A stretch of DNA of 64,000 nt from an uncultured beta proteobacterium. GTDB lineage: Bacteria; Pseudomonadota; Gammaproteobacteria; Burkholderiales; Burkholderiaceae_B. The stretch spans positions 1 through 64,000 of the forward strand of contig CAIZGG010000374.1 of the NCBI GenBank assembly GCA_903932425.1, in the 5' to 3' direction. The notes beneath the pieces were generated by a model. That model was not told the origin of the DNA. It was given only the letters and a program-made list of their open reading frames with translations, and searched no databases. The translations under genes were made by a program, and so were the position numbers. This document shows positions 32,483 through 61,360 of the stretch, one piece after another. Positions within the stretch are counted from its first letter, which is position 1, and each line of letters opens with the position of its first letter.

Positions 32483-33556
32483 ATGCCGGTTGCTACTTCA
32501 CAGCAAGAAATCCCTGCGCGTCTTGATCCGGATCGTTTGCGGCAAATCGCCGCAGCGGTCTATCAAAGCATCGGAGTGCCAGCGCAAGACGCACTGTTGG
32601 CCGCTGACACATTGGTGCAGGCTGATCTTTGGGGGCATCAGTCGCACGGGCTTTTGCGCTTAGGTTGGTATTACGCACGACTAAAATCCGGTGCGATGAA
32701 GTCAGTGACACAAACCTCGCTGGCGGTCGATGCAGGGGCGATTTGTGTGATGGACGGCCATGACGGCATTGGGCAAGTCATTACACGCCAGGCGGTTGAT
32801 CAGGCCGTTACGCGTGCAAAGTTGCATGGCGTTGGTGTAGTGTCAATTCGTAACTCGAATCATTTCGGCACGTGTATGTATTACACGCGGATCGCAGCCG
32901 AGCAAGGCTGCGTAATGCTCTTGATGAGTAACGCCGGACCGAACATGGCGCCTTGGGGTGGACTCAAAAAGAAAATTGGCACCAACCCTTGGTCAATTGC
33001 TGTGCCCGGGGGGGCTTACGGCCCCATTGTGATGGATATGGCCAACTCAGGCGTGGCTCGCGGCAAAATTTATCTCGCGAACAATCGCAATGAAGAGATT
33101 CCTTCACATTGGGCTGTTGACTCAGCGGGGCGCCCAACGACTGACCCTAAAGCGGCTCTTGAAGGATTTATCTTACCCATGGCGGGGCACAAGGGCTACG
33201 TCATGGGGGTCATGATCGATATTTTGTCGGGGGTCCTGTCAGGCAGTCAGTTTCTTGATCGAGTGCACGGCCCCTATGATCCAGTGAACCCCAGCGGTGC
33301 AGGGCATTTGATGGTGGCGCTTAATGTCGCCGCGTTTCAACCTTTGACAGAGTTTCATCAAAGAATCGATCAGTACGTTCGATCATTAAAAGATGTGCCG
33401 CTGGCTGCCGGTCATTCGCAGGTCTTTTATCCGGGCGAGCTTGAAAAACAAGCAGATCAAGAAAATCGGGAAAAAGGCCTGTTGCTTGCCAGCGAGACCA
33501 TCACAGACCTGAGGCGTGTGGCGCACGAGGCGGGAGTTGAGTGCTCGCTTGCCTAG
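32483..33556 (+). CDS. Malate/L-lactate (Ldh2-type) dehydrogenase family
   Basis: 357 aa; GHQSHGLLRL, VSIRNSNHFGTCMYYTRIAAEQG, GTNPWSIAVP, GHKGYVMGVMIDILSGVLSG. Confidence 0.93.
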   Translation: MPVATSQQEIPARLDPDRLRQIAAAVYQSIGVPAQDALLAADTLVQADLWGHQSHGLLRLGWYYARLKSGAMKSVTQTSLAVDAGAICVMDGHDGIGQVITRQAVDQAVTRAKLHGVGVVSIRNSNHFGTCMYYTRIAAEQGCVMLLMSNAGPNMAPWGGLKKKIGTNPWSIAVPGGAYGPIVMDMANSGVARGKIYLANNRNEEIPSHWAVDSAGRPTTDPKAALEGFILPMAGHKGYVMGVMIDILSGVLSGSQFLDRVHGPYDPVNPSGAGHLMVALNVAAFQPLTEFHQRIDQYVRSLKDVPLAAGHSQVFYPGELEKQADQENREKGLLLASETITDLRRVAHEAGVECSLA

Positions 33557-33559
33557 GCT

Positions 33560-33575
33560 TGGCACGGCATTTGCT
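33560..33575 (+). promoter_or_regulatory. Sigma-54 (-24/-12) promoter upstream of the HAT-like hydrolase
   Basis: TGGCAC-GGCAT-TTGCT; GG and GC doublets 12 bp apart, 66 bp upstream of ATG 33641. Confidence 0.8.
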
Positions 33576-33640: not shown

Positions 33641-34654
33641 ATGAACGACTACTCAATTTTTCAAGCAGGCAATATCCTGCTGCAATCTGGCCGTACGCTG
33701 CGCAATGGGCAGTTGGCCTATAAAACCTATGGCGCATTAAACGCTGAAAAATCCAATGTTATTTTGTACATGACTTCGTTTGCCGCGCATCATTACGATG
33801 TGGATTGGCTGATCGGCGCTGGCAAGGCGCTGGACACTGAAAAATATTTCGTCGTTGTGCCAAATTTGTTTGGCAATGGTTTGTCATCTTCCCCCAGCAA
33901 TGCAACCGAACCGCAAAATGGTGAGCGGTGGCCATATTTCACCATCGCCGATAACGTTAACGTTCAATATCGTCTGTTGACGCAAGAGTTGGGGATTACC
34001 TCTCTTGAACTTGCGTGCGGTTGGTCGATGGGAGGCCTGCAGGCGTTTCAATGGGCCTCGTATTACCCAGCAATGGTCAAGCGTATGGCGGTGCTGTGTG
34101 GCGCAGCCAAATGTTCGCCGCATAACCAAGTTTTTATCGAAGGTGTGCGTGCCACGCTCACAACTGATCCTGCGTTTCAAAATGGCGTGTTTGTGCAGCG
34201 CCCTGAGCGTGCGTTGCGCGCAATGGGTCGAAATTACGCGACCATGGCAATGTCGCAGACCTTTTATCGTGAAGAGTTATGGCGTGGCGCGGGTTTCTCG
34301 TCCCTTGAAGATTTTTTGATTATGTCCTGGGAGGCGAATTTCTTGAAGCGTGACGCGAACAACCTGCTCACTCATCTTTGGGCATGGCAAAACGCAAATA
34401 TTGCTGATAACGATAAGTACAAGGGTGACTTCAAAGCCGCTCTGCAAGCGATTACGGCTAAGTCGCTTTTGATGCCGGGTACCACAGACTTGTATTTTCA
34501 GGTTGAAGATAACCGTCTCGAGGCTGAGCAAATGCCTAATGCGCGCTTATTGCCCATACCCTCAGACTGGGGTCATCGGGCTGGTTTGCCTTCTGCCAAT
34601 GTGCAAGATGCGCAGTTCATCACCTCGGCTCTCAAAGATTTGCTGCAGTCATGA
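33641..34654 (+). CDS. Alpha/beta fold hydrolase, homoserine O-acetyltransferase-like
   Basis: 337 aa; [16 protein letters not shown] elbow, [16 protein letters not shown]. Confidence 0.86.
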
Positions 34655-36283
34655 GTGACCGAACTGAAAGCCGCGGCCAGGCGCCGCGGCCAACAGAGTT
34701 TTTGTATAAGCATGCTGAGGGTTCATGAAGACCGATTGCACGGGGCCCTGTTCAACGATTTCGCCGCGTTGCATGACCAACACTCGATCACATATTTGAC
34801 TGGCAACGCGCAGATCGTGCGTGATGAATAAAATACCAATTTTTAAGCGCTGCTGAATTTCATCAAGCAGTTCAAGTATCTGTGCTTGCACTGATACATC
34901 AAGGGCTGAAACGGCTTCATCGGCAATCAACAATCTGGGCTGACATGCAAGTGCGCGCGCAATCGAGATGCGTTGGCGTTGGCCGCCTGAAAATTCATTT
35001 GGAAATCTCGCTAAGGCGTCGGGCGTAAGCCTCACGAGGCGCATGAGTTCCTGTGCCTGCGCCAATGCCTCGGCGCGTGGCACTCCAAAATTTAACGGGC
35101 CTTCAATGATCGATTCGCCGATCGTGCAGCGTGGATTCAAGGAGCGGTAAGGATCTTGAAAAACGATTTGAACGCAACGTCTGAACGGATAAAGCTCTTT
35201 GCCAGTTAAGGAGACGATCGATTGACCCTCTACGGCAATGTCCCCTGAAGAGGCTTCGATCAAACGCGCAATGCAACGAGCCACCGTCGATTTTCCTGAG
35301 CCCGACTCACCAACAATGCCGACAGTCTCTTGAGGCAAGACTTTAAATGAGATGTCTTTTGCGGCAAAGACGCTGCGTTTGCGCAAGGGCCAAGAACCCG
35401 TTGAATAGGTTTTCACCAAATGCGTGGTCTCGACCAACGCCTGAGCGGGTGCGACGTTCGCACGTTGCTTAGGGATGAGGCTGGGCACCGAAGACAAGAG
35501 CATTTGCGTATAGGGTTCTTTTGGGGCTTGCAGTACGTCTAGGCGTTTGCCTTGTTCAACTAAATCCCCAAGCCTCAGCACGACAACCCGGTCTGCAATC
35601 TCGGCAACAACGCCTAAATCGTGGGTGATAAAGAGCACTGCAGTTTGGTTCTGTTTTTGTAAATCTGCAATCAGACTTAAGATTTCTGCCTGAGTCGTGA
35701 CATCCAACGCAGTGGTCGGTTCATCGCAAATGAGTAGCGCTGGTTTCAAAATCAACGCAATGGCGATCACAATCCGTTGACGTTGTCCTCCCGAAAGTTG
35801 ATGCGGGTACGAACCGTAAATGCGTTCTGGCTCTGGCAATTTCACACGATTAAAAATATCTATGATTTGTTTGCGCCGGGCTTCCGCCTTCAAGGATGTG
35901 TGTTGCCTAAGTTGTTCATCGACCTGAGCGCCGCAAGTCATGATGGGATTGAGCGCGGTCATAGGCTCTTGAAATACCATCGCCATTTTTTCACCCCGCA
36001 GGCGCCGTAACCGCTCTTTTGGTGCGCTGACGATCGATTCGTTCAGCAACAGGATTTGGCCGCTTGAAATACTGAGTGTTTTAGGAAGTAACCCCATGAC
36101 CGCTTGCGCGATCACTGACTTGCCCGAACCTGATTCGCCAAGTAAGCATACGATTTCCCCTTGTCGGACGTTGAAGGAAATGTTTCGAACTGCGGCTGAA
36201 CGATCGGCGCCACGTGGCAGATCGATTGTGAGGTGCTCGATTGACAATACGATTGTAGGATCTGGCGTCGGCATGTGCATCAT
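34649..36283 (-). CDS. Dipeptide/oligopeptide-type ABC transporter, fused double ATP-binding protein
   Basis: Two Walker A ([22 protein letters not shown]) and two [16 protein letters not shown] signatures. Start set to MMHMPTPD at 36283 to avoid overlap with the permease. Confidence 0.94.
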
Positions 36284-36290
36284 CTTGGTG

Positions 36291-37166
36291 TCAACCGCCA
36301 CGTTTATTAAATTTTGGATCAAGGGTGTCGCGCAATCCATCGCCTAAAATATTGACAGCTAAGACAGTGAGTGCCAAAAAGAATCCGGGAAACAAGACTG
36401 TGTGTGGAAATTGGTTAAATTGCATGCGTCCGTCAGCCATGATGTTTCCCCAGGTCGGAATCTCAGGGGGCAGACCGACTCCTAAAAAAGACAGAATCGC
36501 TTCGACCAAGATCGCTGAGGCACACACATAGGTTCCTTGAACGAGCAGGGGTGCAACGGCGTTGGGCAAAATATGGCGCCAGACAATATTCGGGGTTGAA
36601 CTCGCGAGCGAGATCGCGGCTTCGACGTAGGGCTCTTGACGGATCGTCAGAACAATTGACCTAACCAGACGCGCCACGCGCGGTATTTCAGGGATAGCAA
36701 TTGCAATGACAACTGAAAGCACGGTTGGCCTCCATAAGGCCATCAAGGTGATCGCAAACAAAATGCCAGGTATCGCCATCAAACTGTCCATCAGACGCAT
36801 CAGCGCATTGTCTAGACCCTTGAAATAGCCCGCAATGACACCGAACAGCGTGCCGATGAGCAGCGCGAGCAGTGCAACGCACACGCCCACGGTGAGCGAA
36901 ATCCGTGCGCCATAGGTGATGCGTGTCCAGGTGTCTCGCCCCAGACTGTCAGTGCCCATAAAAAAATAGTGCTCAAACGTATCGCCCGAAAGATCAGAAA
37001 ATTCAGCTTGCGTACCCGGCAGTAAATTGGCGCTGCCAGGATCCATCGCAGTGGGAGATATGGTGTAGAGCCATGGAGCACAAACCGCCATGAATAGTAA
37101 AAACGAGAATGCGGTGATGCCGATGCGTACAGAAGTGTTGCGCAAAATTTTTCTATAAAGAATCAT
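36291..37166 (-). CDS. Peptide-type ABC transporter permease (DppC-like)
   Basis: 291 aa; FMGTDSLGRDTWTRITYGARISL, EAILSFLGVGLPPEIPTWGNIMADGR. Confidence 0.94.
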   Translation of the reverse strand: MILYRKILRNTSVRIGITAFSFLLFMAVCAPWLYTISPTAMDPGSANLLPGTQAEFSDLSGDTFEHYFFMGTDSLGRDTWTRITYGARISLTVGVCVALLALLIGTLFGVIAGYFKGLDNALMRLMDSLMAIPGILFAITLMALWRPTVLSVVIAIAIPEIPRVARLVRSIVLTIRQEPYVEAAISLASSTPNIVWRHILPNAVAPLLVQGTYVCASAILVEAILSFLGVGLPPEIPTWGNIMADGRMQFNQFPHTVLFPGFFLALTVLAVNILGDGLRDTLDPKFNKRGG

Positions 37167-37182
37167 GAATCATTTTGCCTAG

Positions 37183-38124
37183 TTAGTATCGAATACGCGG
37201 GTCAAGCACGAGGTAGCTCAAATCAACTAACAGATTGATCAGTACGTACACAAAAGAGAAAAATAAGGTGATGCCTTGTATCAGTGGATAGTCACGCCCC
37301 AGTACTGCATCAACGGTGAGTTGACCCAACCCCGGAATGGCGTACACCGTTTCAGTCACCACGACACCGCCAATCAGCAGGCCCACCCCAATTCCGATGA
37401 CGGTAACGATGGGGACCGCAGCATTCGCTAACGCATGTCGAATCAATATCCGTAACTCACTAAGGCCCTTCGAGTGTGCGGTGCGAATGTAATCTTCGGT
37501 GAGGGCCTCGGCAACTGAAGCGCGAGTGACTCGTGCAATGAGCGCAAGATAGACTATAGAAAGCGTAAAAGCCGGCAGAATCAGATGTGACAACCATGAG
37601 CTGAAATTTTCAGTCAAAGGTGTATAGCCCTGCACAGGTAAGAGTTTCCAATGTAGGGCGATAGCCCAAATTAAGATGTACCCAATGACAAACGTCGGGA
37701 CAGAAAAACCCATGACAGAAAATCCCATGAGTGAGCGATCGAGCCAGCCACCATGCCGCCAGGCGGCCAACAGTCCAAGCGGAATGGCAACCAGCAGTGT
37801 CATGAGCATCGTGAGTAGGGTTAGACAGACAGTGGGGCCGATGCGTTGGGCAATCAAGTGCGTGACTGATTGCTTCATGTAATAAGACTCGCCCAGATCG
37901 CCGCGCACCACTTTGGTCGCCCAGTGCATGAATTGAATCGGTAATGCTTCGTTTAACCCCAGCGACTCTCGAATCCGCGCAATATCAGCGCTCGTGCCAT
38001 TGTTGCCAACTAACGCCGCAGCGGGATCGCCGGGCGTGAGTCGCAGCATGGCAAAAACGATGAGCGCAACTAGTAACAGGACTGGTATCGTCGACAATAC
38101 CCGCTTTAAAATAAAAAGCATCAA
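37183..38124 (-). CDS. Peptide-type ABC transporter permease (DppB-like)
   Basis: 313 aa; TPGDPAAALVG, EDYIRTAHSKGLSE, ETVYAIPGLGQLTVDAVLGRDYPLIQG. Confidence 0.95.
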   Translation of the reverse strand: MMLFILKRVLSTIPVLLLVALIVFAMLRLTPGDPAAALVGNNGTSADIARIRESLGLNEALPIQFMHWATKVVRGDLGESYYMKQSVTHLIAQRIGPTVCLTLLTMLMTLLVAIPLGLLAAWRHGGWLDRSLMGFSVMGFSVPTFVIGYILIWAIALHWKLLPVQGYTPLTENFSSWLSHLILPAFTLSIVYLALIARVTRASVAEALTEDYIRTAHSKGLSELRILIRHALANAAVPIVTVIGIGVGLLIGGVVVTETVYAIPGLGQLTVDAVLGRDYPLIQGITLFFSFVYVLINLLVDLSYLVLDPRIRY

Positions 38125-39707
38125 TTTTTCTTCAAGTTCCAGAAAGCGTTGATAGGCGACTGGACTAAACCGCTCACAACGCCTTTGCGTACGACGCTGT
38201 AGTAATCAAAATCGCCTACCTTGGCAAAAATTCCGGTCGCATAGGTTTGAAGTTGCAACGCTTCAGCCAGTTTTTTGCGCTCTTGAACTGTGGCGGCCGC
38301 CATGAACTGAGCTTTAAGCTCTTCGAGCTTAGGATCGGTTGTCCAACCGAACCAGCCTTTTTCGCCATTTCCTGTCAACGGTGGGAAGAATAACGGGTTC
38401 ATCATGTCTCCGGGACCCCAGCCGGTGATAAACATATTCCAACCACCTTTGTCGGCTGGCTCTTTACTTGTGCGGCGCGTGACCAAAGACGACCAGTCCA
38501 TGCTCTGCATGTCGACGTTAAAGCCGGCCTGCTTTAACAGCTGCGCCAGCACGGGCGGAAATTTGTTCAATACAGCAAAGTCGGCTGGAAACAACAGGAC
38601 AACGGGCTTGCCGTCATAGCCGGCTTCTTTCAAAAGTTTTTTGGCAGCCTCAAATTGAGGTTTTCCAGTGAAGTAGTCTGTTTGTGGTGAGGCCCAGACC
38701 GAGTCGCAAGGATAAATTGATGTGCAGGGTCGATAGAGATCTTTGTTGACCATTTGAGCGCGCATCAACGCCTCTTGGTTCAGCGCCATGATTGCAGCCT
38801 GTGCAATCTTTGGATTATCGAACGGGGGTACAAAGTGATTCAAGTGCAAATTGTAGGCACCTGCGGGGGTGGGTTTGACGAGCTCAAGGGAGGGGTTGGC
38901 TTTGAAGGCCGCGTATTGCTCGGCAGGCATCCATTCGATCATGTCGATCTCGCCGTTGGCAATTGCGTTGGCCTGAGTTTGCGCATCTTTTAAAATGACC
39001 CACTCAAGTCGATCAACGAAAACTCGCTTGCCTCCCGCCGTTCCAGAGGGGTCCTCTGAGCGTGGCACATACTTTTCATTTTTGACATAAACGATTTTTG
39101 CACCAGGCTTATATTCATCCATTTTCATGATGTAGGGCCCAGAGCCTACATACTCGGAGATCTGCTGATCAGCCGGTGTCATTGCGACCCGCTTGGGCAT
39201 GATGAACGTGGCGTTGCCCGAAGGCTTAGAGAGCGCCTCTAGCACCATTGGGAATGGCTTGCTGAAGCTCATCTTGAAGGTCATGTCGTCGACGGGTTCA
39301 AACGATGCAAGGGCTTGCGCCATGACTTGCCCAAAGACGTCTCGCTTTGCCCAGCGGTTCACTGATGCAATCACGTCCGCCGAGGTTACCGGAGCACCGT
39401 CGCTAAAACTTAGGCCCTTGCGTAGGGTGAAGGTCCATTCCTTGAAGTCGTCTGACTTTGTGTATGTGTCGACCATTTGCGGCTGAATTGCGCCGTTGGC
39501 GTCGATGCCGAACAACTGGTCGTAGACCATATAGCCATGGTTACGAGTCACAAAGGCGGTAGTCCAGATCGGATCAAGAATTTTTAAGTCTGCCTGAGGC
39601 ACGATTCGCAAAACTTTAGCGGCGTCTTGGGCCTGCACCGTCGCCACGACACTGGCGATACCTAAGGCGGTTGCCAAGAACAGTCTACGCAAATTACGAT
39701 TTACCAT
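38121..39707 (-). CDS. Peptide-type ABC transporter substrate-binding protein (SBP family 5)
   Basis: 528 aa; signal peptide; FTLRKGLSFSDGAPVTSADVIASVNRW. Confidence 0.94.
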   Translation of the reverse strand: MVNRNLRRLFLATALGIASVVATVQAQDAAKVLRIVPQADLKILDPIWTTAFVTRNHGYMVYDQLFGIDANGAIQPQMVDTYTKSDDFKEWTFTLRKGLSFSDGAPVTSADVIASVNRWAKRDVFGQVMAQALASFEPVDDMTFKMSFSKPFPMVLEALSKPSGNATFIMPKRVAMTPADQQISEYVGSGPYIMKMDEYKPGAKIVYVKNEKYVPRSEDPSGTAGGKRVFVDRLEWVILKDAQTQANAIANGEIDMIEWMPAEQYAAFKANPSLELVKPTPAGAYNLHLNHFVPPFDNPKIAQAAIMALNQEALMRAQMVNKDLYRPCTSIYPCDSVWASPQTDYFTGKPQFEAAKKLLKEAGYDGKPVVLLFPADFAVLNKFPPVLAQLLKQAGFNVDMQSMDWSSLVTRRTSKEPADKGGWNMFITGWGPGDMMNPLFFPPLTGNGEKGWFGWTTDPKLEELKAQFMAAATVQERKKLAEALQLQTYATGIFAKVGDFDYYSVVRKGVVSGLVQSPINAFWNLKKN

Positions 39708-39798
39708 ACTGATACCTTTTCAAGTGAAGATGAACGGACATTCGCGCCGGGTACTCAGGAAACGCCCAAGCACGCTTGCAGTCGTTAACCAAGCCGAC

Positions 39799-39813
39799 GC
39801 AAAAATCGTGCCA
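39799..39813 (-). promoter_or_regulatory. Sigma-54 promoter for the peptide-type ABC operon
   Basis: Minus strand TGGCAC-GATTT-TTGC, 92 bp upstream of the SBP start at 39707. Confidence 0.78.
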
Positions 39814-39891
39814 CCTAAATTGGCTTTGCGGATTTCTTCCTGATAAAACCCGAGAGGTTGTGGCTGTTGCCCCAGTTATTGTCGACATACT

Positions 39892-39907
39892 TGGCATGGC
39901 ATTTGCT
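39892..39907 (+). promoter_or_regulatory. Sigma-54 promoter for the OsmC/ACAD-like/rubredoxin-reductase operon
   Basis: TGGCAT-GGCAT-TTGCT, about 100 bp upstream of ATG 40007; core closely matches the element at 33560. Confidence 0.75.
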
Positions 39908-40006
39908 TATAGCTAAGTGTTATATCGAACCCTAGTGATCGGTACGCGCTTAGCCGTATGATTCAGCCTATCTTTTTTCTTCTATCGAGTTATTTGGAGC
40001 CCTTCA

Positions 40007-40555
40007 ATGAGCAACGACAATGCCCCTTCTACAGTCAAAGCCTACCTGCGACCAATCGATCGCGAAGGCTTATTAGGCTTCGCTGAAAAAGGCCGTGCAG
40101 ATCCAACACGCAAGGGCACCAACAAGGTGCATACCGTTTGCGAGGGTCAGTATCGCACCCTCAGTTATGTCGGTAATCACCAGCCAGTCGTTGTCGATGA
40201 GCCACCTCATTTATTCGGGCAAGACACAGCTCCAGCGCCGGGTGAAATCGTGTTGTCAGCCCTCGGAGGCTGTTTAGCTGTTGGCATTACGGCTGTGGCA
40301 ACGTGGAAGCAAGTCAAACTGTCAAAGCTTGAATTATTTTTAGAGGGCGACATTGGCAATCCAGCGGCCTGGGGCGCAGGTGGTGCAGAAATGGCACCGC
40401 CTCAAATGGGTTTTCAGGCAATACGTGTCAAAGTGGTGATTGAGGGTGATGCGTCGCGCGAGCAGCTCGACGAGATCGTTCGTCACGCCAACATGTACTC
40501 GCCTGTTGCCAACTCAATGCGTAACCCCATCGGGTTTGAGATCGGGCTGGCGTGA
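40007..40555 (+). CDS. OsmC family protein
   Basis: 182 aa; DEPPHLFGQDTAPAPGEIVLSALGGCLAVGITAVAT, C-terminal CPV-like region replaced by MYSPVANSMRNP. Confidence 0.88.
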   Translation: MSNDNAPSTVKAYLRPIDREGLLGFAEKGRADPTRKGTNKVHTVCEGQYRTLSYVGNHQPVVVDEPPHLFGQDTAPAPGEIVLSALGGCLAVGITAVATWKQVKLSKLELFLEGDIGNPAAWGAGGAEMAPPQMGFQAIRVKVVIEGDASREQLDEIVRHANMYSPVANSMRNPIGFEIGLA

Positions 40556-40675: not shown

Positions 40676-41812
40676 ATGAATCCCACAGATGTAAGCCCAG
40701 CAATACTCAATACGCCAGCCAGCGATTTGCTAGCGCGGGTCAGGCACATCTCGAGTGGCGAGCTAGCAGGCGCCGCCTACAAGATTGACCACGAAGGTCT
40801 TTACCCTGCCAGCATCATGCAGACCTTGGGTCAGGCTGGCGCATTTGGAGCACACTTAGATCGCAACGGGCAAAATTTTGGCCTGGCGATTGACGCAATG
40901 CGAGAAATCGCACGCAACTGCGGTTCGACTGGCTTTTTAGCTTGGTGCCACGACGTTTGCGGTCTGTATATGGAGCAATCTGGCAACCCAGCCTTGATGG
41001 GGGCTGCGCTGGATGAACACGCCTGTGGCAATACCTTAGGCGGTACCGCCCTCTCGAACCCTATGAAAACGTTCGCTGGCATTGAAAAAATGCTGTTGCG
41101 TGCCAAGCGCGTGCCTGGTGGTTATCGCGTCAGTGGCGCCTTGCCGTGGGTCAGTCATATTGGTCGTGGGCAATATTGTGGCGCGATTGCCGGTGTGTAT
41201 CTCGACGATGGTACGACCTCGCATGAAATTATGTTCTTGCTGCGCTGTACAGAGGACGTGGTGCTCAGGCAATGTCCTGAATTTTCCGGTATGGAGGGCA
41301 CGAGCACCTGGGGAATTCGTTTAGACGATTATTTTGTCAGCGAAGACTCTTTGATCGCCGACCCCGCTAAGCCGTTTATCGCACGAGTCCGTGCTGCGTT
41401 CGTGTTGCTTCAAACCGGTTGGGCGCTTGGGGTCACACAGGGCAGCATTGAGTCGATGCTTGAAGTAGAGCCCTTGCTTGGACATGTGAACAAGTTTTTA
41501 GATAATCGCCCAGATCAATTGCAGGCTGAACTCGATGATTTAAGTGAGCGCATTCAAACGCTTGCCTTGACGCCTTACGACGGTAGTGTCGATTACGTCA
41601 TCAGTGTGTTGGATGCGCGTGCGCAGAGCGCAGAGCTTTCACTGCGAGCGTCTCAATCTGGTTTGTTGCATCAGGGTGCGCGCGGCTACATGATGAACAC
41701 AGCGCCGCAACGTCGCATTCGTGAGGCTCACTTTGTAGCGATTGTTACCCCCGCGATCAAGCACTTACGCTGGGAGATGGCTCGCTTGTCTAAGCAGGTG
41801 TTGCCTGCATGA
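40676..41812 (+). CDS. Acyl-CoA dehydrogenase-fold flavoprotein (atypical)
   Basis: 378 aa; [36 protein letters not shown]-terminal RRIREAHF; overlaps next gene by ATGA. Confidence 0.82.
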
Positions 41813-43131
41813 CGCAAGATCAGGCCTGGAAGCAGTTTATTTGTCGCGCCTGTGGTCTGATTTACGACGAGCAACTTGGCGACCCCGACAGTGGTATCGC
41901 TGCAGGCACACGGTTCGCGGATATTCCTGACGACTGGGTGTGCCCGTTGTGTGGTGTGGTGAAAGCCGACTTTGAGCCCTATGATGCGTTGAGCGTCACG
42001 TCTCAAGCGGCTAGCCCATCTCTGCACCTCGCTCGGGGTGTCGGTGTTGTTATTGTTGGCGGCGGACAGGCTGGGTGGGCTGCTGCCGAGGCAGTGCGTG
42101 CCCTAGATGCCTTGGTTCCAATTACGATGGTGACAGCCTGCGAAGGCGATCGGTACCTTAAGCCTGAGCTCTCGATTGCGCTGCGTCGTCAGTCAAGTCG
42201 TGCATCACTGGTGCGCGAAACTGGCGTCGCGAGTGCTGCTCGCCTTGGCGTGCGTCTCATGAGCGAAACCTTTGCAGTGGGTTTGTCACCCGCTTTGCAC
42301 CAACTGCGCACGACGCGAGGTCATTTGCAGTACACCTCATTAATCTTGGCCCAAGGGGCGCGTCCAGCGTTACCTGACGTGCTGCCGGCGCATCTGTGCT
42401 GGCGAGTCAATGACTTGGACGCTTGGGTCAGGTTAAAGGCTCATCTGGGGGATCAACCCAAGCGCATTGTCATCATCGGGGCCGGGATGGTGGGGTGCGA
42501 ACTAGCAGACGATTTCATGACGGCTGGGCACCAGGTCACGTTGCTTGATGTGCAAAAAGCGCCGTTGGCGGCTTTGCTGCCAGCGCAGGCGTCCGAGCGT
42601 TTGCGTGCGGCACTCACCGGCGCTGGCGTAACATTTTTGGGCGCCACGCGGGTGGCGGGCGTGACTGAGCGCGAGCAGGGAATCAAAACGGTGTCGCTTG
42701 TCGATGCACCACCAATCGAATGCGACGAGGTCGTGGCCGCAACGGGTCTGATCACCGACACTCGCCTGGCGCTCGCTGCAAAATTGGCGACTGATCGAGG
42801 TATTGTTGTTGATCCACTGACACTACAGACGAGTGCCGCCGATGTGTACGCGCTTGGAGACTGTGTCAGCATCAATGGCATGCCTTGTCGCTTTATTGAG
42901 CCGATTTCAAAGCAGGCCCATGCGATCGCGAGCACGATCACAGGGCATGGTGATGCTTCTTATAAGCACAGCCCCCCAGTGATCCGTTTGAAAACGCATT
43001 CCTTACCAGTCGTACTGCATGGTAGTCCCGTTTTACATGGCCAATGGCGCGTCGTGTCAGACACAACGAAACAGCTCAAAATGGCTCAACAAGTTGACGG
43101 CGTTGATTGTTGTACGCTTGAACTAGGCTAA
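41809..43131 (+). CDS. Rubredoxin domain fused to FAD-dependent NAD(P) oxidoreductase (rubredoxin reductase)
   Basis: 440 aa; [12 protein letters not shown]...[18 protein letters not shown] rubredoxin; [19 protein letters not shown] and [17 protein letters not shown] nucleotide-binding motifs; DVYALGDC. Confidence 0.92.
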
Positions 43132-43296: not shown

Positions 43297-43668
43297 ATGA
43301 GATTTAGTATTCAACACGCTAAAGACAAGCCTTTTTCACATGATGGCTTGCGCGAGTATTTTGATTATCGCGACCTAGGGATTTATGACTCGACCGATAA
43401 AAAGGTCGTTGCGCATGTGATTCGCGCCAGTAAAGGCAGCAACGCGCACGGTGATTGGCACTGCCATGAAGTTGAGTTTCAGTTTGTCTTTGTTTTAAAA
43501 GGCTGGGCAATTTTTGAATATGAAGGCCACGGTACCCACAAGCTTGAGGCTGGTACTTGTGTGCATCAGGCCCCTGGGATTCGCCATCGTGAAATCGAGC
43601 ACTCTGACGACTTTGAAACGCTTGAGTTAATTTTGCCAGGCGATTTCAAAACAGTTCAGCTGCCTTAG
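43297..43668 (+). CDS. Small single-domain cupin protein
   Basis: 123 aa; HGDWHCHEVEFQFVFVLKGWAIFEYEG...GTCVHQAPGIRHREIEHS. Confidence 0.88.
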   Translation: MRFSIQHAKDKPFSHDGLREYFDYRDLGIYDSTDKKVVAHVIRASKGSNAHGDWHCHEVEFQFVFVLKGWAIFEYEGHGTHKLEAGTCVHQAPGIRHREIEHSDDFETLELILPGDFKTVQLP

Positions 43669-43698: not shown

Positions 43699-45129
43699 CT
43701 ACTTGAATGCTTCGTCAAAGTGCATGTCTCGGCTGAAGAGGCGTGCACTTTCTTGATACCCTGCGACAGTTAGATGGATCAGATCTCGCGCCATGAGTGT
43801 TGGGTTTTTTTTGAGCCAGGCGTACGAGCCGCCGGGGCCACCCATTGCTCGTTGCCAATCCCAAAAGCCACAGCCGTAGCGTTGACCAACCGTTTGTTGA
43901 CTGCGGCTGATCTGCTCATGAATGCGTGAGTAAACAAAAAGTTCTTTTGCAATCGCAGGTGCGTCCGCAACCTGTGATTGATCTTTTTTAGCGCTGACCT
44001 GTGGTTTATTTTTTCCAGAGCGGGCAACCAAGGTGCCGCGGTCAGTCGGGCCGAGCAAGATGCAGACGGCATTTGGATATATACGCCGTAAGTTTTCTAG
44101 GCTCGCCGTAAGATCATTTTTGTAGTGAACTGGATCAAAAGGTTTTTGATTGCCTTCGTTCGTGCCGTATTGAAGCAGCACCACATCGTAGGGGGCCTGA
44201 TTGCCAAGCGCCTTAAAGTATGTGGGGTCAAGCCGTTTCCAGCCGCGCATGGTCGCACCTGGTATGGCTAAGGTGTCAAAATATAGCTGTGCTTGTTCAG
44301 CATAGGCGGGTACAAAGCCTTCGAGGCTGACCGAACCTCTGACGAGCCGTAACTTGAGTGTTGACACCAAACCACCTTCGGCTTGAATCTGTATCGCGCC
44401 GCGCTGATTGAGCTTAAGGTCTACTAATTGCTCAGGCAACTGATCAATCGTGATACCCAAAGTGGTGGGTGTTGCGTTCGCCGCGTACAGAATATCGAGC
44501 CCACGCAGATTAGGTTGCTGCCCCTGTATTCTGAAGTCAATCCATTGATAGCTATCGTTGATAGTCGACGTCAGGCGCGCCATGCCTCGTGAAAATTGCT
44601 CAACTCCTTGTCCACCGACATACGCGAGGTCGTATTTCCAACCTTGCCCCTGACATTGTTTTCGAAGTGGCAAGCGCACGCCACCACGCGCGAGTGTGGG
44701 CGGGATAAAAAGCGGTAGAACTTTTTCTTTTGGTAACTTCGCTGATTTAATCAGTTCTTCGGTAAAAAAATTCGCAGCAGCGTGACTATCGCCCCAAAGA
44801 GCAACGTTAAGCGGTCGTGATTTAGGTAGTGTTGCAAAAAGGTTAAGAGCCCCCTCGGTACTTGCTGTCTGTTGGGGCAAAGATTTAATAAGCTCAGCTA
44901 ATAGTTCTTCGTCAGGGATTTCGTACAGGTCCTCAAGAGGAGTGGGGGGTGTTGCGGGACGCGGTGCTGGTTTGCTGATCAGGCATTGCAAGTCAGGGGC
45001 GGGTTGACCGGCCCGAACAGTCAGGTTTTGCGCGCGTAGAGTGTGAGCGGTGAAAAATAAAACTAGAGTGAGACACCCCGAGATCAACGAAATACGCAGT
45101 CTCTTGTGATCGTCTGAAAGGGCTTTCAT
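43699..45129 (-). CDS. SGNH-hydrolase-type protein with large insertion; candidate O-acetylesterase/transferase
   Basis: 476 aa; signal peptide; NVALWGDSHAAANF, QYGTNEGN, DLIHLTVAGYQ; about 200-residue beta-rich insertion between blocks I and III. Overlaps upstream gene by 4 bp. Confidence 0.8.
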   Translation of the reverse strand: MKALSDDHKRLRISLISGCLTLVLFFTAHTLRAQNLTVRAGQPAPDLQCLISKPAPRPATPPTPLEDLYEIPDEELLAELIKSLPQQTASTEGALNLFATLPKSRPLNVALWGDSHAAANFFTEELIKSAKLPKEKVLPLFIPPTLARGGVRLPLRKQCQGQGWKYDLAYVGGQGVEQFSRGMARLTSTINDSYQWIDFRIQGQQPNLRGLDILYAANATPTTLGITIDQLPEQLVDLKLNQRGAIQIQAEGGLVSTLKLRLVRGSVSLEGFVPAYAEQAQLYFDTLAIPGATMRGWKRLDPTYFKALGNQAPYDVVLLQYGTNEGNQKPFDPVHYKNDLTASLENLRRIYPNAVCILLGPTDRGTLVARSGKNKPQVSAKKDQSQVADAPAIAKELFVYSRIHEQISRSQQTVGQRYGCGFWDWQRAMGGPGGSYAWLKKNPTLMARDLIHLTVAGYQESARLFSRDMHFDEAFK

Positions 45130-46541
45130 GGTTTAGCTTGTTTCTTAATCAACTCATATAAACGCGCACTAATTAAACGTAAACCGGCTTGAGTGAAGTG
45201 AATGCCGTCATCTGCGCGAGTCATGACTTGCCCTTTGCCAGGTTCTTCGACAAATTTTTTAAAGGGCTCATCAAGTCCCCCTAAAAAATCTTCTGTTGAG
45301 AGGTAATCAAAATTGAATTGACCGGCCTGCTCTTTAAATATTTTATTTTGCACAATGGCGCCACGCTTAACGCGCTCTTCTTTCATGTTTGGCAGGCCGA
45401 TCCAAATGACATGTACTTGTTGTTCTTTTGCAAATTGCATGACTTCGATGACGCGGTCGCGGTATTTTTCTTCCCATTCGGGTGTGCCAAAGGCATATCG
45501 CTTTGCGCCATCATAAATATCCCAAGGGTCGTTCGGCCCTAAAAATACCGCAACTAATTCGAATCCACGGGCGAGTGTCTCGTCTTTGATTTTTGTGGGC
45601 CAGTCAAAATACCGGCGCACTGTGAGCCCTGTGCTCTGTGCGCTGAGGTCTACGAAGACCCCCTTGGGATTTTCTTTACGTAGCTGATTGATGACTAAGG
45701 GTGCGACGCCTTGCATCATCGAATCGCCGGCAAACAGCACCTTCGGAAAAGTAACGGCTGCCGTCGCGACGTCGGCGCCAGCCCCAGCTACCTTGCCGGG
45801 GGTTGTAGGAGTGTTTGGTGTCGCAGTTAATGGCGCAGAAGAGGTCGTTGCGGTTACAGCAGCAGGAGCTGGAACAGCCGTAGGGGCGGGGGCAACAACC
45901 GTAGGAGTAGCCGAGGCGGGCGCTGCAGTAGCAGTCGAAGGCTTCATCGTAACAACAGCGGGCGCATCAGGAACGGGAGCAAGAACAGAAGCAGGAGCAG
46001 GAACAGGAACGGAAGCAGGAACGGAAACAGGAACAGGAACAGGGATAGCATCAGAAATAGGAACTGGAACAGAAGCAGGAACAGAAGCAGGAACAGAAGC
46101 AGGAACAGAAGCAGGAACAGAAGCAGGAACAGAAGCAGGAACAGAAGCAGGAACAGAAGCAGGTGCTGGAGCGACAACAGCTGTTGCGGTAACGATCGGA
46201 GCGGCGAGCGCCAGGCTCGCTGGGGCGGTTGTGCCTTTGTTTGTTTGCGTTGCAGCTGGCGTGGGGTTCAACTTTGCGGTTAATTTCGGTGCTGCAGGCT
46301 CGGCGTCACGGTGGGGGGGCGCTAAAAGCTGCGCTAGCTTGGCTGCGCCGAATTGTTGAGTGTGAGTGATGAGCGCATGCACCTGTCGCGATAAGGCGAA
46401 AGCTCGCTCTGGCAGGGCAGCGCTGAGCGCAATGTGATAGCGCGAGCTTAAGTAGCGATCAAACGAATCAAGCCACACTAGGGTGTTAAGAAGCACCGCG
46501 GCGACTAAAAGAAGGTAGAACGGGCGTTGGATTTTGCTCAT
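45126..46541 (-). CDS. DUF459-type SGNH protein with N-terminal TM and long Pro/Ala/Val repeat linker
   Basis: LFAGDSMMQGVAPLV, FLGPNDPWDI, DGIHFTQAGLR; start MSKIQRPFYLLL at 46541, 1 bp after MBOAT stop. Confidence 0.88.
   Translation of the reverse strand: MSKIQRPFYLLLVAAVLLNTLVWLDSFDRYLSSRYHIALSAALPERAFALSRQVHALITHTQQFGAAKLAQLLAPPHRDAEPAAPKLTAKLNPTPAATQTNKGTTAPASLALAAPIVTATAVVAPAPASVPASVPASVPASVPASVPASVPASVPASVPVPISDAIPVPVPVSVPASVPVPAPASVLAPVPDAPAVVTMKPSTATAAPASATPTVVAPAPTAVPAPAAVTATTSSAPLTATPNTPTTPGKVAGAGADVATAAVTFPKVLFAGDSMMQGVAPLVINQLRKENPKGVFVDLSAQSTGLTVRRYFDWPTKIKDETLARGFELVAVFLGPNDPWDIYDGAKRYAFGTPEWEEKYRDRVIEVMQFAKEQQVHVIWIGLPNMKEERVKRGAIVQNKIFKEQAGQFNFDYLSTEDFLGGLDEPFKKFVEEPGKGQVMTRADDGIHFTQAGLRLISARLYELIKKQAKP
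46066..46161. repeat. Eight perfect copies of a 12-bp tandem repeat inside a coding region
   Basis: GGAACAGAAGCA x8 (+ strand), encoding repeated ASVP on the minus strand; degenerate copies extend to about 45960. Confidence 0.97.
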
Positions 46542-46542
46542 T

Positions 46543-47946
46543 TCAAAATCGATAGTAAATAAAGCCTGGTACACCGCTTGGGCCCAGCACGATCGCAACA
46601 AAGGCAAGGGCGCTCACTAAAAGAGTGAGTGCAACCCACCTGAGCTCAGTGAGCCGCTGCACACAGGCTTGCTCGATACGTTGAGCCTGTGCACTTAATA
46701 AAAAGAAAATAATGATAAAGGCCGCAAGCAGGCCATGTTGAAATTCAGTTTTGCCTAAACCGTTGGCTAGTCCAGCGAGCAACTGCAAAGCAGCTTCATT
46801 ATTGTCAGCTCTAAAAAATACCCAGGCCAACGCAACGTAAGACAGGGTGAAAATCCGCGCCATGATGACTGGCATCGCTTGATCTTTACCAAGTGCTTTG
46901 TCGTAGAGATTGATGAACACCACTCCGAGCCCGTGTAGAGTGCCCCAAACAATAAAAGTAGAATTTGCCCCGTGCCAGAGCCCGCTGATCACCATCGCCA
47001 GCAGAATATTGAACTGCGTGTGTACAAAACCCTTTCGGTTGCCACCCAACGGGATGTAGATGTAATCGCGAATAAAGCTTGAGAGCGAAATATGCCAATG
47101 CCGCCAAAACTCTTGCAGGTTGATTGCTAAATATGGTTGCTTGAAATTGATCGGAAGGCTGAACCCTAACATCAATGCAAGACCGGTGACAATCAAGGTA
47201 TAGCCGGCAAAGTCTAAAAAAATCTGTAACGAATAGCCCGCGATGGCTGCAAGTGAGGTCACAAAAGTTTGTGCGTCTGGATACTTGAAGGCCTCATCGA
47301 CAAACGTACCTGCGAGCCACGAGGCAAAGACCATTTTTTGAAAAAGGCCCAACAAAATGTAGTAAATCGCCTTGTGCGTTTGGCGCGGCAGTCCAACCTC
47401 TGTGCCGCCAAGTTGTGCAAAAAAATCACCAGCACGCATGATTGGCCCTGCAAATAAGGTGGGCCAAAAAGATAAAAATAAAAGTAGATGAACAAAAGAA
47501 GTGCGTGGTGGCTTAGTTTCGTACTGCCAGACCAAATAGGTAACCGCCTGGAAGGTAAAAAACGAAATACCTGCTGGAGCAACGATATCAATGATGGGTA
47601 GAAGCGCCTGCAGTCCTAAGTTGGGCATGAGCGCGGCGAGCGTCTGGCGCACAAACTCGTAATACTTGCTGGTCAGTAGCAACGTCAGGCTGACGAGCAC
47701 GCTGATTGAAAACCAGAGTTTGCGACCAGGAGTGGTTTTACAGGATTGCACCCAATGGCCGGCTAGCCAGATATATGTGCTGAAGACCAGCAAGATACAG
47801 GCGAACTGCACCGACCAGGTCGCGTAGAGTGCATACCCCGAGATCGTTAAAAACCCGAGTTGAATTGAGCGGTGACGGCTCAGTGACCAGTATATGGGGA
47901 AGAAAATTAGGGCAATGAGTGCAAACTCGGGAGAGACAAAGCTCAT
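46543..47946 (-). CDS. MBOAT family membrane O-acyltransferase (AlgI/PatA/DltB-like)
   Basis: 467 aa; multi-TM; NLQEFWRHWHISLSSFIRDYIYIPLGGNRKG and ISGLWHGANSTFIVWG with conserved His. Confidence 0.94.
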   Translation of the reverse strand: MSFVSPEFALIALIFFPIYWSLSRHRSIQLGFLTISGYALYATWSVQFACILLVFSTYIWLAGHWVQSCKTTPGRKLWFSISVLVSLTLLLTSKYYEFVRQTLAALMPNLGLQALLPIIDIVAPAGISFFTFQAVTYLVWQYETKPPRTSFVHLLLFLSFWPTLFAGPIMRAGDFFAQLGGTEVGLPRQTHKAIYYILLGLFQKMVFASWLAGTFVDEAFKYPDAQTFVTSLAAIAGYSLQIFLDFAGYTLIVTGLALMLGFSLPINFKQPYLAINLQEFWRHWHISLSSFIRDYIYIPLGGNRKGFVHTQFNILLAMVISGLWHGANSTFIVWGTLHGLGVVFINLYDKALGKDQAMPVIMARIFTLSYVALAWVFFRADNNEAALQLLAGLANGLGKTEFQHGLLAAFIIIFFLLSAQAQRIEQACVQRLTELRWVALTLLVSALAFVAIVLGPSGVPGFIYYRF

Positions 47947-58159: not shown

Positions 58160-58975
58160 TTAAGCCTTTGCAGGTGCAGGGTGGCCTTGCTTGCGATATA
58201 AAAAGTCGATGACTGCGGTGCGGTAATCAAGGTATTGAGTGCTATGCGCTAACGCAACCCGATCGCGCGGGCGTTCGAGTTCGACTGATAAGATTTCACC
58301 GATACGCGCCGCGGGCCCATTGGTCATCATCACAATCCGATCCGATAGCAAAACGGCCTCGTCGACATCGTGCGTCACCATGACGGCCGTGCTGTTTTTA
58401 GACGCCATGATTTTGATCAGTTCGTCTTGCAAATTTGCACGTGTCAAAGCGTCGAGTGCACCAAAGGGCTCGTCAAGCAGCAATACTTGTGGCTCCATAG
58501 CCAGGGCGCGCGCGATACCAACACGCTGTTTCATGCCGCCTGATACCTCATGCGGCATTTTGTGTTGTGAGGCAGTCAAGCCCACTAAAGCCATCACTTC
58601 TTCAGTGCGTTCTTTCAACTGAGCGTTGGTTTCAGTGGCCGCAAAGACTCGCTCGACACCAAGATAAACGTTTTCAAAGCAAGATAGCCACGGCAGAAGT
58701 GAATGGTTTTGAAAGACCACCGCTCGGTTCGGGCCAGGCCCTGCAATTTCACGACCCGCACAGATCAGGCGACCCTCGGTTGGTAGCGTGAGGCCAGCGA
58801 TCAAATTGAGCAGGGTTGATTTGCCGCAACCCGAGTGCCCGATCAAGGTGATAAATTCACCTTGCCTGACGCTCAGATTGATATCCTTGAGCGCAATAAA
58901 AGGCCCTTTTTTTGTCTTAAACGTTTGCTGAACATCTTCAACCAGCAAGTAGCGCTCTAGTGTGCTTGGCTTCAT
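58160..58975 (-). CDS. nrtD: Nitrate ABC transporter ATP-binding protein
   Basis: 271 aa; GHSGCGKSTLLNLIAGL, VSGGMKQRVGIARALA; context. Confidence 0.92.
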   Translation of the reverse strand: MKPSTLERYLLVEDVQQTFKTKKGPFIALKDINLSVRQGEFITLIGHSGCGKSTLLNLIAGLTLPTEGRLICAGREIAGPGPNRAVVFQNHSLLPWLSCFENVYLGVERVFAATETNAQLKERTEEVMALVGLTASQHKMPHEVSGGMKQRVGIARALAMEPQVLLLDEPFGALDALTRANLQDELIKIMASKNSTAVMVTHDVDEAVLLSDRIVMMTNGPAARIGEILSVELERPRDRVALAHSTQYLDYRTAVIDFLYRKQGHPAPAKA

Positions 58976-59026
58976 GGTCAGCCTGTGATGTGTGAGGCAA
59001 GCGTGTTTGGATTCATGGCTCGCCTG

Positions 59027-59911
59027 CTATTCATAAGAGAAACGTTTTGCGATGGCGATCATGCAATACTCAAGCAAGAGCCCCACAATACCGATCACAA
59101 AAATTGCGATGATGATATTTTCAACTTTGAGGTTGTTCCATTCATCCCAAAGCCAAAATCCAATACCCACGCCACCGGTGAGCATCTCGGCCGCGACGAT
59201 CACCAACCATGCGGTGCCGATCGATAAGCGCACACCAGTCAACATATAGGGCAAGGTCGCTGGAAACAAAATCTTGGTAAAGACTTTCCACTCTGAAAGA
59301 TTTAATACGCGTGCAATGTTGATATAGTCTTGCGGGATTTTGCTTACGCCGACCGCAGTGTTGATCACCATGGGCCAGATCGAACAAATAAAGATGCACC
59401 AGATTGCTGCTGGGTTCGCGGCCTTAAACAACAGCAGGCCGATTGGTAGCCAAGCCAGGGGCGACACTGGACGTAATAAGCTGATGATTGGCGAGGTCAT
59501 CGCTTGAAATAAGCGAAAGCGTCCGATCAAGAAGCCTACCGGTATACCAATAGCGGCCGCCAGACCAAAACCTAAACCAACCCTGCGTAGCGAAGATAGG
59601 ATGTTCCAACCGATCCCCTGGTCATTGGGGCCGTTTGAATAAAACGGATCAGCAAAGAGTTTGACCGCTGCCGCAAAGGTAAAAGCAGGCGAGGGGATCT
59701 GCTCGATGCTGCGATGGATCGCCTCCCAGATTAATAAGAAAACAATAAAACCAAGCGCCCCTAACAGGGCAGGCACGAACGGGTCGAGCAGGCGCACGAA
59801 CTGCTCTCTGAGCGCCAGACGTTTTTGTTCGCGTCGGCGCAGAGCTTCGCTCTCAAGCTGTTGCTCAAGGGCGAGTTCGGCGATGCTTTTAGTTTGGCCT
59901 TCGCTCATCAT
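59027..59911 (-). CDS. nrtB: Nitrate ABC transporter permease
   Basis: BPD-type permease; SPLAWLPIGLLLFKAANPAAIW; start MMSEGQ at 59911. Confidence 0.92.
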   Translation of the reverse strand: MMSEGQTKSIAELALEQQLESEALRRREQKRLALREQFVRLLDPFVPALLGALGFIVFLLIWEAIHRSIEQIPSPAFTFAAAVKLFADPFYSNGPNDQGIGWNILSSLRRVGLGFGLAAAIGIPVGFLIGRFRLFQAMTSPIISLLRPVSPLAWLPIGLLLFKAANPAAIWCIFICSIWPMVINTAVGVSKIPQDYINIARVLNLSEWKVFTKILFPATLPYMLTGVRLSIGTAWLVIVAAEMLTGGVGIGFWLWDEWNNLKVENIIIAIFVIGIVGLLLEYCMIAIAKRFSYE

Positions 59912-59912
59912 G

Positions 59913-61190
59913 CTAGCCTTTGATGGCAAAGCTGTCAGCGTAAGCAACTGGGTCGCTACCGTCCCAGACTTTACCGTCCAGCAAGGTAGAGGTGCGCATC
60001 TCTGATGCCGGCAACGGCGTGCCCGTCAGTGTCGCCGCCTGTTTGTACACATCGATACGATTGACCTTCTTGGCCACAGCCAGATAATCTGGATGTTCTT
60101 TAAGCAGCCCCCAGCGTTTGTGTTGCGTCAAAAACCATATCCCGTCCGAAAGGTAAGGAAAGTTGACCAGACCATTGTTGTAGAACTTCATGTAATCCGG
60201 GTCATCCCATTTTTTGCCAATGCCGTTGTCGTATTGACCTAAGATTCGACCCAAAATCACGTCAACTTCTGTGTTGACATACGATTTTGCTGCGATCGTT
60301 TCTGCAGTTTTGGTTCGACTCTCTTTTGACGAATCGATAAACTTCGAGGCCTCAAGCACGGCCGCCGTCATCGCGCGTGCGGTGTTTGGGTAGCGCTCTA
60401 CGAACTCAGCGGTCGTGCCTAAGACTTTTTCAGGGTGGTCTTTCCAGATGGCCTGACTGGTGATGGTGGTGAAGCCGATTTTGTCCGCAATCGCTCGTGC
60501 GTGCCATGGCTCTCCGACGCAATAGCCATCCATATTGCCAACCCGCATGTTGGCTACCATTTGCGGTGGCGGCACGGTGATGACCTTGGTATCTTTCATC
60601 GGGTTGATGCCATTGGCGGCTAGCCAGTAATACAGCCACATTGCATGGGTGCCGGTTGGAAAAGTTTGCGCGAAGGTGTACTCGCGCTTCTCCTTCTCCA
60701 TTAAAGTTTTTAACGAGGCGCCATCGGTGACACCCTTTTCGAACAGCTTACGCGATAGGGTGATCCCTTGACCGTTATTGTTCAAGGTCATCAAGATCGA
60801 CATATCTTTTTTAGGTCCACCGATACCTAATTGCACCCCATAGATCAGGCCGTACAGCACATGGGCTGCATCGAGCTCTCCATTAATTAATTTGTCTCGA
60901 ACGCTGGGCCAAGACGCCTCTTTTGAGGGCGTGATTTTTAAGCCGTATTTCTTGTCAAACCCCATCTCTGAGGCCATCACTACCGAGGCGCAGTCAGTCA
61001 AGGGGATAAAGCCGATTTTGATATCGGTTTTTTCAGGTGCGTCGCTGCCTGCAGCCCAGGCGCCGGCTTTGACCAAGGGATCGACTAAGGCCATTAAACT
61101 TGCGCCCGCCAACATTTTGGTCGACGTTGTTAAGACTTTGCGGCGACTCGAATTGATCGCAACTTGAGTGGTTGATTTGCTACTCATCAT
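59913..61190 (-). CDS. nrtA: Nitrate ABC transporter substrate-binding protein (NrtA/CmpA family, Tat-type signal)
   Basis: 425 aa; SSRRKVLTTSTKMLAGASLMAL; IGFIPLTDCASVVMA; VGNMDGYCVGEPWHARAI. Confidence 0.93.
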   Translation of the reverse strand: MMSSKSTTQVAINSSRRKVLTTSTKMLAGASLMALVDPLVKAGAWAAGSDAPEKTDIKIGFIPLTDCASVVMASEMGFDKKYGLKITPSKEASWPSVRDKLINGELDAAHVLYGLIYGVQLGIGGPKKDMSILMTLNNNGQGITLSRKLFEKGVTDGASLKTLMEKEKREYTFAQTFPTGTHAMWLYYWLAANGINPMKDTKVITVPPPQMVANMRVGNMDGYCVGEPWHARAIADKIGFTTITSQAIWKDHPEKVLGTTAEFVERYPNTARAMTAAVLEASKFIDSSKESRTKTAETIAAKSYVNTEVDVILGRILGQYDNGIGKKWDDPDYMKFYNNGLVNFPYLSDGIWFLTQHKRWGLLKEHPDYLAVAKKVNRIDVYKQAATLTGTPLPASEMRTSTLLDGKVWDGSDPVAYADSFAIKG

Positions 61191-61230: not shown

Positions 61231-61245
61231 GCAAGTAGTGTGCCA
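61231..61245 (-). promoter_or_regulatory. Sigma-54 promoter of the nitrate assimilation cluster
   Basis: Minus strand TGGCAC-ACTAC-TTGC, 41 bp upstream of nrtA start. Confidence 0.82.
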
Positions 61246-61333
61246 ACTGAGCGTTAGGCGCTTGCTGCGCCCATTCATGATGGGATCGCTGCAATGAAAT
61301 GAAACTAAGCCGCACTTGCGTGGTGCATCTGAA

Positions 61334-61360
61334 AGCACAGCACCATGATGGTGCTGTGCT
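61334..61360. promoter_or_regulatory. 27-bp palindrome, NtrC-type enhancer site
   Basis: AGCACAGCACCAT-G-ATGGTGCTGTGCT, perfect 13-bp arms, contains GCACCA-N3-TGGTGC; partial second site GCACTTGCGTGGTGC at 61312-61326. Confidence 0.75.

Follow-up and report, generated by a model that had tools for sequence, protein, structure and literature searches.

Candidate sigma-54 promoters of a nitrogen-limitation regulon around a transporter cassette apparently inserted beside osmC in a freshwater betaproteobacterium

Three exact matches to the sigma-54 consensus, two of them facing away from each other in one intergenic gap and the third preceding a nearby hydrolase gene, probably act as sigma-54 promoters of the NtrB-NtrC nitrogen-limitation regulon in an uncultured betaproteobacterium, and their present layout would result from the insertion of a transporter/hydrolase cassette. 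We give this combined reading, which is derived from sequence comparison, a probability of about 0.7. All three sites are situated in the window, i.e. the whole stretch of 64,000 nucleotides that was analysed.

The gap at 39708-40006 measures 299 bp and is flanked by the gene of a solute-binding protein (SBP; start at 39707, minus strand) and osmC (start at 40007, plus strand). The initial annotation had placed a sigma-54 element on each strand of this gap, at 39813-39799 (-) and from 39892 (+), and both are indeed exact matches to TGGCAY-N5-TTGC at these positions (Table 1). Two additional exact sites, at 33560-33574 (+) and 61245-61231 (-), were absent from that annotation. The former belongs to a group of three promoter-like exact sites within 7 kb (33560, 39799-39813 and 39892), all of which carry the GG and GC doublets at the fixed spacing. 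The minus-strand site of the gap runs on as TTGCG, while TTGCT is the commoner continuation. The 39892 site is very likely a genuine sigma-54 promoter of osmC, and the 39813-39799 site is likely, if somewhat less surely, to serve the SBP gene in the same way. Sigma-54 sites scoring at least 10 were found in the window neither before ldh2 nor before the two beta-lactamase-like genes upstream of it. One more exact site, at 36768-36754 (-), falls within the coding region of permC, and locus L209 has a match at the equivalent position; the site was treated as coding sequence and is probably maintained by coding constraint.

Table 1. Genes and candidate regulatory elements of the window, in order of position.
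Feature	Position	Strand	Remark
Ldh_2 family dehydrogenase (ldh2)	32483-33556	+	left edge of insertion
Third sigma-54 element, TGGCACGGCATTTGC	33560-33574	+	exact match; 66 bp 5′ of alpha/beta-hydrolase gene
Alpha/beta hydrolase, MetX-like family PRK07581	33641-34654	+	
Opp/Dpp-type ABC transporter, fused double ATPase subunit	34649-36340	-	
ABC permease, OppC/DppC type	36291-37166	-	
ABC permease, OppB/DppB type	37183-38124	-	
Family 5 solute-binding protein (SBP)	38121-39707	-	first gene of ABC operon
Sigma-54 -24/-12 element, TGGCACGATTTTTGC	39813-39799	-	exact TGGCAY-N5-TTGC; 91 bp 5′ of SBP start
Sigma-54 -24/-12 element, TGGCATGGCATTTGC	39892-39906	+	exact TGGCAY-N5-TTGC; 100 bp 5′ of osmC start
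OsmC-like protein (osmC)	40007-40555	+	first gene of plus-strand operon
Candidate NtrC dyad, GGCACCAACAAGGTGCA	40115-40131	+	inside osmC; score 19 of 20; maybe coding sequence only
Acyl-CoA-dehydrogenase-fold flavoprotein	40676-41812	+	far from characterised members
Rubredoxin fused to NorW-like FAD reductase	41809-43131	+	
Cupin protein	43297-43668	+	kept 3′ of reductase gene in most relatives
Sigma-54 element, TGGCACACTACTTGC	61245-61231	-	exact; 40 bp 5′ of nrtA-like gene; comparison promoter
Two NtrC dyads	61311-61327 and 61339-61355	-	upstream of nrtA-like promoter

The promoter region of osmC was compared in 19 genomes of the genus Jezberella (Alcaligenaceae), the window included, in which the flavoprotein gene is preceded by osmC. 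The initial annotation had proposed conservation of the GG and GC doublets in orthologous regions as a check. An exact site is present 5′ of osmC in 11 of the 19 genomes; in L063 the GC doublet has been lost (TTGA for TTGC), and L066, L069 and L071-L075 have no site there. The position is about -115 in the window and L058-L062, about -150 in L064 and L065, and about -73 in L067, L068 and L070, with differing spacers. Within the first of these groups, the 15-bp core is 98% identical in pairwise comparison, compared with 41% (ungapped) over the preceding 60 bp and 86% over the following 60 bp. Since the site has been retained and also re-created at new positions, selection appears to favour sigma-54 control in some members of the genus. 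Such control on the osmC side is thus well supported by conservation and by the repositioned equivalents.

On the transporter side, Jezberella montanilacus (G014; Alcaligenaceae, Betaproteobacteria according to NCBI) is the named species with the closest ABC cassette, its SBP being 84% identical; the window probably stems from an uncultured member of the same genus. In J. montanilacus, exact sites precede both the SBP orthologue (TGGCATGATGATTGC) and a second SBP homologue (TGGCACGAAAATTGC). Weaker candidates with GG/GC spacing occur before the Paraburkholderia and Pseudomonas homologues, and no sigma-54 site was found before the SBP orthologue of the three other cassette-bearing congeners. 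Through the J. montanilacus homologues, sigma-54 control of the ABC operon is reasonably supported. One of the three congeners without the SBP site, G028, carries a divergent pair of exact sites elsewhere (L209, 2572 (-) and 2607 (+)), between an MlrC-like gene, which is 5′ of the hydrolase gene, and the gene of a solute-binding protein that had no family match and is of the TctC/Bug type by our own reading. Another divergent pair was seen at L239 (G000:C408), at 11385-11399 (-) and 11424-11438 (+), 24 bp apart; the plus-strand frame looks transglutaminase-like by eye, and the minus-strand gene has no NCBIfam match.

The surroundings of osmC in relatives bear on the origin of the divergent layout. 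In thirteen congeners ldh2 is found just 5′ of osmC; the gene is truncated in L062 and complete in the other twelve. No ldh2 was found at the remaining five osmC loci. In the window, the hydrolase gene and the four ABC genes separate ldh2 from osmC. The cassette is located elsewhere in G014, G028, G001 and G003, and a short contig of G009 holds the hydrolase gene without ABC genes. Because ldh2 abuts osmC in relatives, the transporter/hydrolase cassette is best regarded as an insertion and the divergent arrangement as secondary. The two sites of the divergent pair described in the initial annotation are real, but the pair is not an ancestral unit, since an inserted block of ABC and hydrolase genes now separates ldh2 from osmC. 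Most of this insert is flanked by the sites at 33560 and 39892. Among 2926 site pairs, these two show the closest resemblance, agreeing at 13 of 15 non-consensus positions, compared with 10 for the next-best pair. In view of this likeness, the hydrolase promoter was probably copied from that of osmC, and a promoter duplication would probably have put the inserted hydrolase gene under the same control.

A search of the contig with the PF00158 profile gave no match, in agreement with the earlier remark on the absence of an activator gene from the window. In the source genome, whose assembly is 84% complete and 6% contaminated, the same profile detected a single strong sigma-54 activator domain (E 2.3e-70), along with six weaker matches (E 1e-5 to 8e-4) that by score look like other AAA proteins. 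The strong match is NtrC (TIGR01818, 675.8 bits against a cut-off of 558.6), and its gene adjoins ntrB (PRK11073, 306.9 over 240). RpoN is encoded as well (PF04552 match at C408, E 1.6e-59). An SfnR-type activator gene was not found in this assembly, NtrC being the only strong PF00158 match. A single sigma-54 activator gene is present in 23 of 32 genomes of the genus (the source genome plus 22 of its 31 congeners), among them a 100%-complete genome, and nine congeners have further activators. In 28 comparable loci NtrC is 78-97% identical to that of the source genome, each time with NtrB beside it. NtrC is therefore the fairly probable activator of the divergent promoters. As the genome yielded no other sigma-54 activator, the operons are most likely switched on under nitrogen shortage.

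The other promoter-like sites of the source genome point in the same direction. When 76 sites were sorted by context, partly by hand, 24 were classed as promoter-like and 52 as not, most of the latter being intragenic. Promoter-like sites precede glnA, urtA, an amidase gene and a dihydropyrimidinase/hydantoinase gene, others precede genes of several peptide-type and SsuA-like solute-binding proteins, and one precedes a TorF-type porin gene followed by amtB. In the window, one such site precedes an nrtABC-like operon (58160-61190, -). glnA and amtB are generally controlled by NtrB/NtrC with sigma-54. In Paraburkholderia phymatum, nitrate and urea use is under RpoN control (PMC5748707). Since these other sites precede nitrogen-acquisition genes and NtrC is the sole activator found, the regulon appears to serve nitrogen scavenging. 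The initial annotation had suggested a nutrient-stress scavenging regulon that needs an enhancer-binding protein; this idea gains support from the sole NtrC and the classical nitrogen genes, which narrow it to nitrogen, but the NtrC dyads seen at the glnA, porin-amtB, urtA and nrtA promoters are missing here.

The NtrC dyads were evaluated as 17-bp elements against the E. coli-type consensus TGCACY-N5-RGTGCA, with a maximal score of 20. An upstream dyad scoring at least 17 lies within 300 bp of 7 of the 24 promoter-like sites and of none of the 52 others (one-sided Fisher about 2e-4 by our own arithmetic, for a split made partly by hand). The scores are 17-19 at the glnA, porin-amtB, urtA and nrtA promoters. 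The 33560 promoter is also among the seven, with a dyad of score 18 located 275 bp upstream, inside the ldh2 coding sequence. Judged by its elements, the nrtA-like promoter (61231-61355) is the clearest NtrC-type promoter of the window, having a textbook dyad pair. Within 300 bp upstream of either divergent promoter, the range of 50-250 bp included, there is no NtrC dyad of the GCAC-N7-GTGC type, the best reaching 12-13 of 20, which matches the earlier remark that no clear NtrC site is visible between the promoters.

The sole strong dyad near the divergent promoters is GGCACCAACAAGGTGCA, which follows the plus-strand site by about 220 bp and is upstream of the minus-strand site by about 300 bp. 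Its sequence is largely dictated by the conserved peptide GTNKVH. The two free synonymous positions (GGC and GTG) are fixed in the nine genomes of the window's clade; among the ten more distant genomes, GTG is never present and GGC is mixed, but three of the ten also carry a sigma-54 site. These clade-fixed codons are suggestive of an NtrC site and no more, and we did not accept the dyad as proof of NtrC binding, as GTG and GGC may simply be favoured codons. Separately, NtrC-like dyads with scores of 16-19 were observed 88-203 bp before ldh2 in L066, L068, L069 and L070, with no sigma-54 site scoring at least 10 beside them; in L068 and L070, the distance from these dyads down to the osmC sigma-54 site is about 1.25 kb.

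Taken as a mechanism, nitrogen shortage would lead NtrB to phosphorylate NtrC, and NtrC hexamers would then promote open-complex formation by sigma-54 polymerase at the three promoters. The minus-strand promoter would raise uptake through the Opp-type transporter, the 33560 promoter would raise the hydrolase, and the plus-strand promoter would raise the OsmC/flavoprotein/rubredoxin-reductase/cupin operon. Arrival of the cassette between ldh2 and osmC would have created the divergent layout, and a stretch of about 25 bp from the osmC promoter was probably duplicated in the process. We infer the dependence on NtrC, the place of NtrC binding and the supply of organic nitrogen by the three operons. 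A more speculative and rather doubtful extension is that the genus has a class of sigma-54 promoters that are active without a nearby upstream enhancer, whereby NtrC would act from solution or through an intragenic osmC enhancer common to both operons.

Other explanations of the sites were weighed against this nitrogen-regulon reading. Chance matches to a short consensus are very improbable: although most exact matches in the genome are intragenic and the minus-strand site has the less usual TTGCG, TGGCAY-N5-TTGC occurs 78 times in the 4.07-Mb genome compared with 15 times for a reversed-pattern control, about a five-fold excess. At the rate of the 52 non-promoter sites, about 0.004 matches would be expected by our own arithmetic in 299 bp over two strands, so that two sites facing two genes cannot be attributed to chance; in addition, one cassette contains three promoter-placed sites, and there is conservation. 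It is also unlikely that the sites bind sigma-54 polymerase without productive transcription while sigma-70-type promoters drive the operons. Such binding is made conceivable by the widespread intragenic sigma-54 binding that is reported for E. coli (PMC4591121), and by the absence of the site in a minority of relatives. Against it stand the location of the sites 66-100 bp 5′ of the starts of three genes, the conservation of the core compared with the diverged upstream sequence, the re-creation of sites at new positions, and a sigma-70-type scan of 39600-40100 that gave one match in 500 bp compared with 0.5 expected, which is near chance.

Alternatively, the sites may be sigma-54 promoters that answer to another activator, e.g. 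a sulfur-type (SfnR-like) or substrate-specific one, whose gene could be missing from the source genome in view of the 84% completeness and 6% contamination of its assembly. The further activators of nine congeners, the lack of an upstream NtrC dyad at the divergent promoters and the fold-level resemblance of the flavoprotein to flavin enzymes of sulfur scavenging would fit this explanation. The SfnR/sigma-54 sulfur-scavenging regulon of Pseudomonas reportedly combines sigma-54 control with an acyl-CoA-dehydrogenase-fold flavoprotein; both features are shared here, but no SfnR-like activator was found. We consider another activator improbable, because NtrC is the sole activator in 10 of the 11 genomes with the osmC site, several of them at 93-96% estimated completeness, and because J. 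montanilacus, at 100% completeness, has NtrC only and retains an exact site 5′ of each SBP homologue.

Under the preferred nitrogen-regulon reading, the system shares its promoter elements and activator gene pair with the NtrB-NtrC/sigma-54 nitrogen regulon of Proteobacteria (glnA, amtB, urea and nitrate uptake). Classical nitrogen genes are likewise among its members in the source genome, some with tandem NtrC dyads, whereas the divergent promoters have no upstream dyad. The type of control is thus ordinary apart from the absent nearby NtrC dyad. What appears unusual is this lack of upstream dyads, together with the probable promoter duplication over an inserted gene. We know of no membership of the OsmC/flavoprotein/rubredoxin-reductase operon in the NtrC regulon.

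The gene products offer some hints to function. The flavoprotein matches distant acyl-CoA dehydrogenases only, solved ones included, and could receive its electrons from the fused rubredoxin reductase. In J. montanilacus, no gene closely related to that of the flavoprotein was found. The ABC transporter is of the oligopeptide type, and its association, in relatives, with the hydrolase and an MlrC-like metallopeptidase suggests peptides or amides as substrates. This resembles Opp/Dpp importers beside M81-family (MlrC-like) metallopeptidases: the orthologous transporter and hydrolase adjoin an MlrC-like gene in three congeners, and many Burkholderiales have MlrC-like genes 3′ of the transporter. 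In the window, by contrast, no MlrC-like gene is beside the transporter, and the cassette sits between ldh2 and osmC. Further along the window, an ORF at 45126-46607 (-), read from its translation, has a long low-complexity PASVPASVP tract; it adjoins an MBOAT-like acyltransferase gene (46543-47946) and another secreted-protein gene, both assigned from translations.

The probable nitrogen control of an OsmC/flavoprotein/rubredoxin-reductase operon and a peptide-type importer in freshwater bacteria is a clue to their function. A genus with mostly a single sigma-54 activator is also a clean natural system: any sigma-54 promoter that is active there should be a reporter of NtrC. It further raises the question of how promoters without upstream NtrC dyads may be activated.
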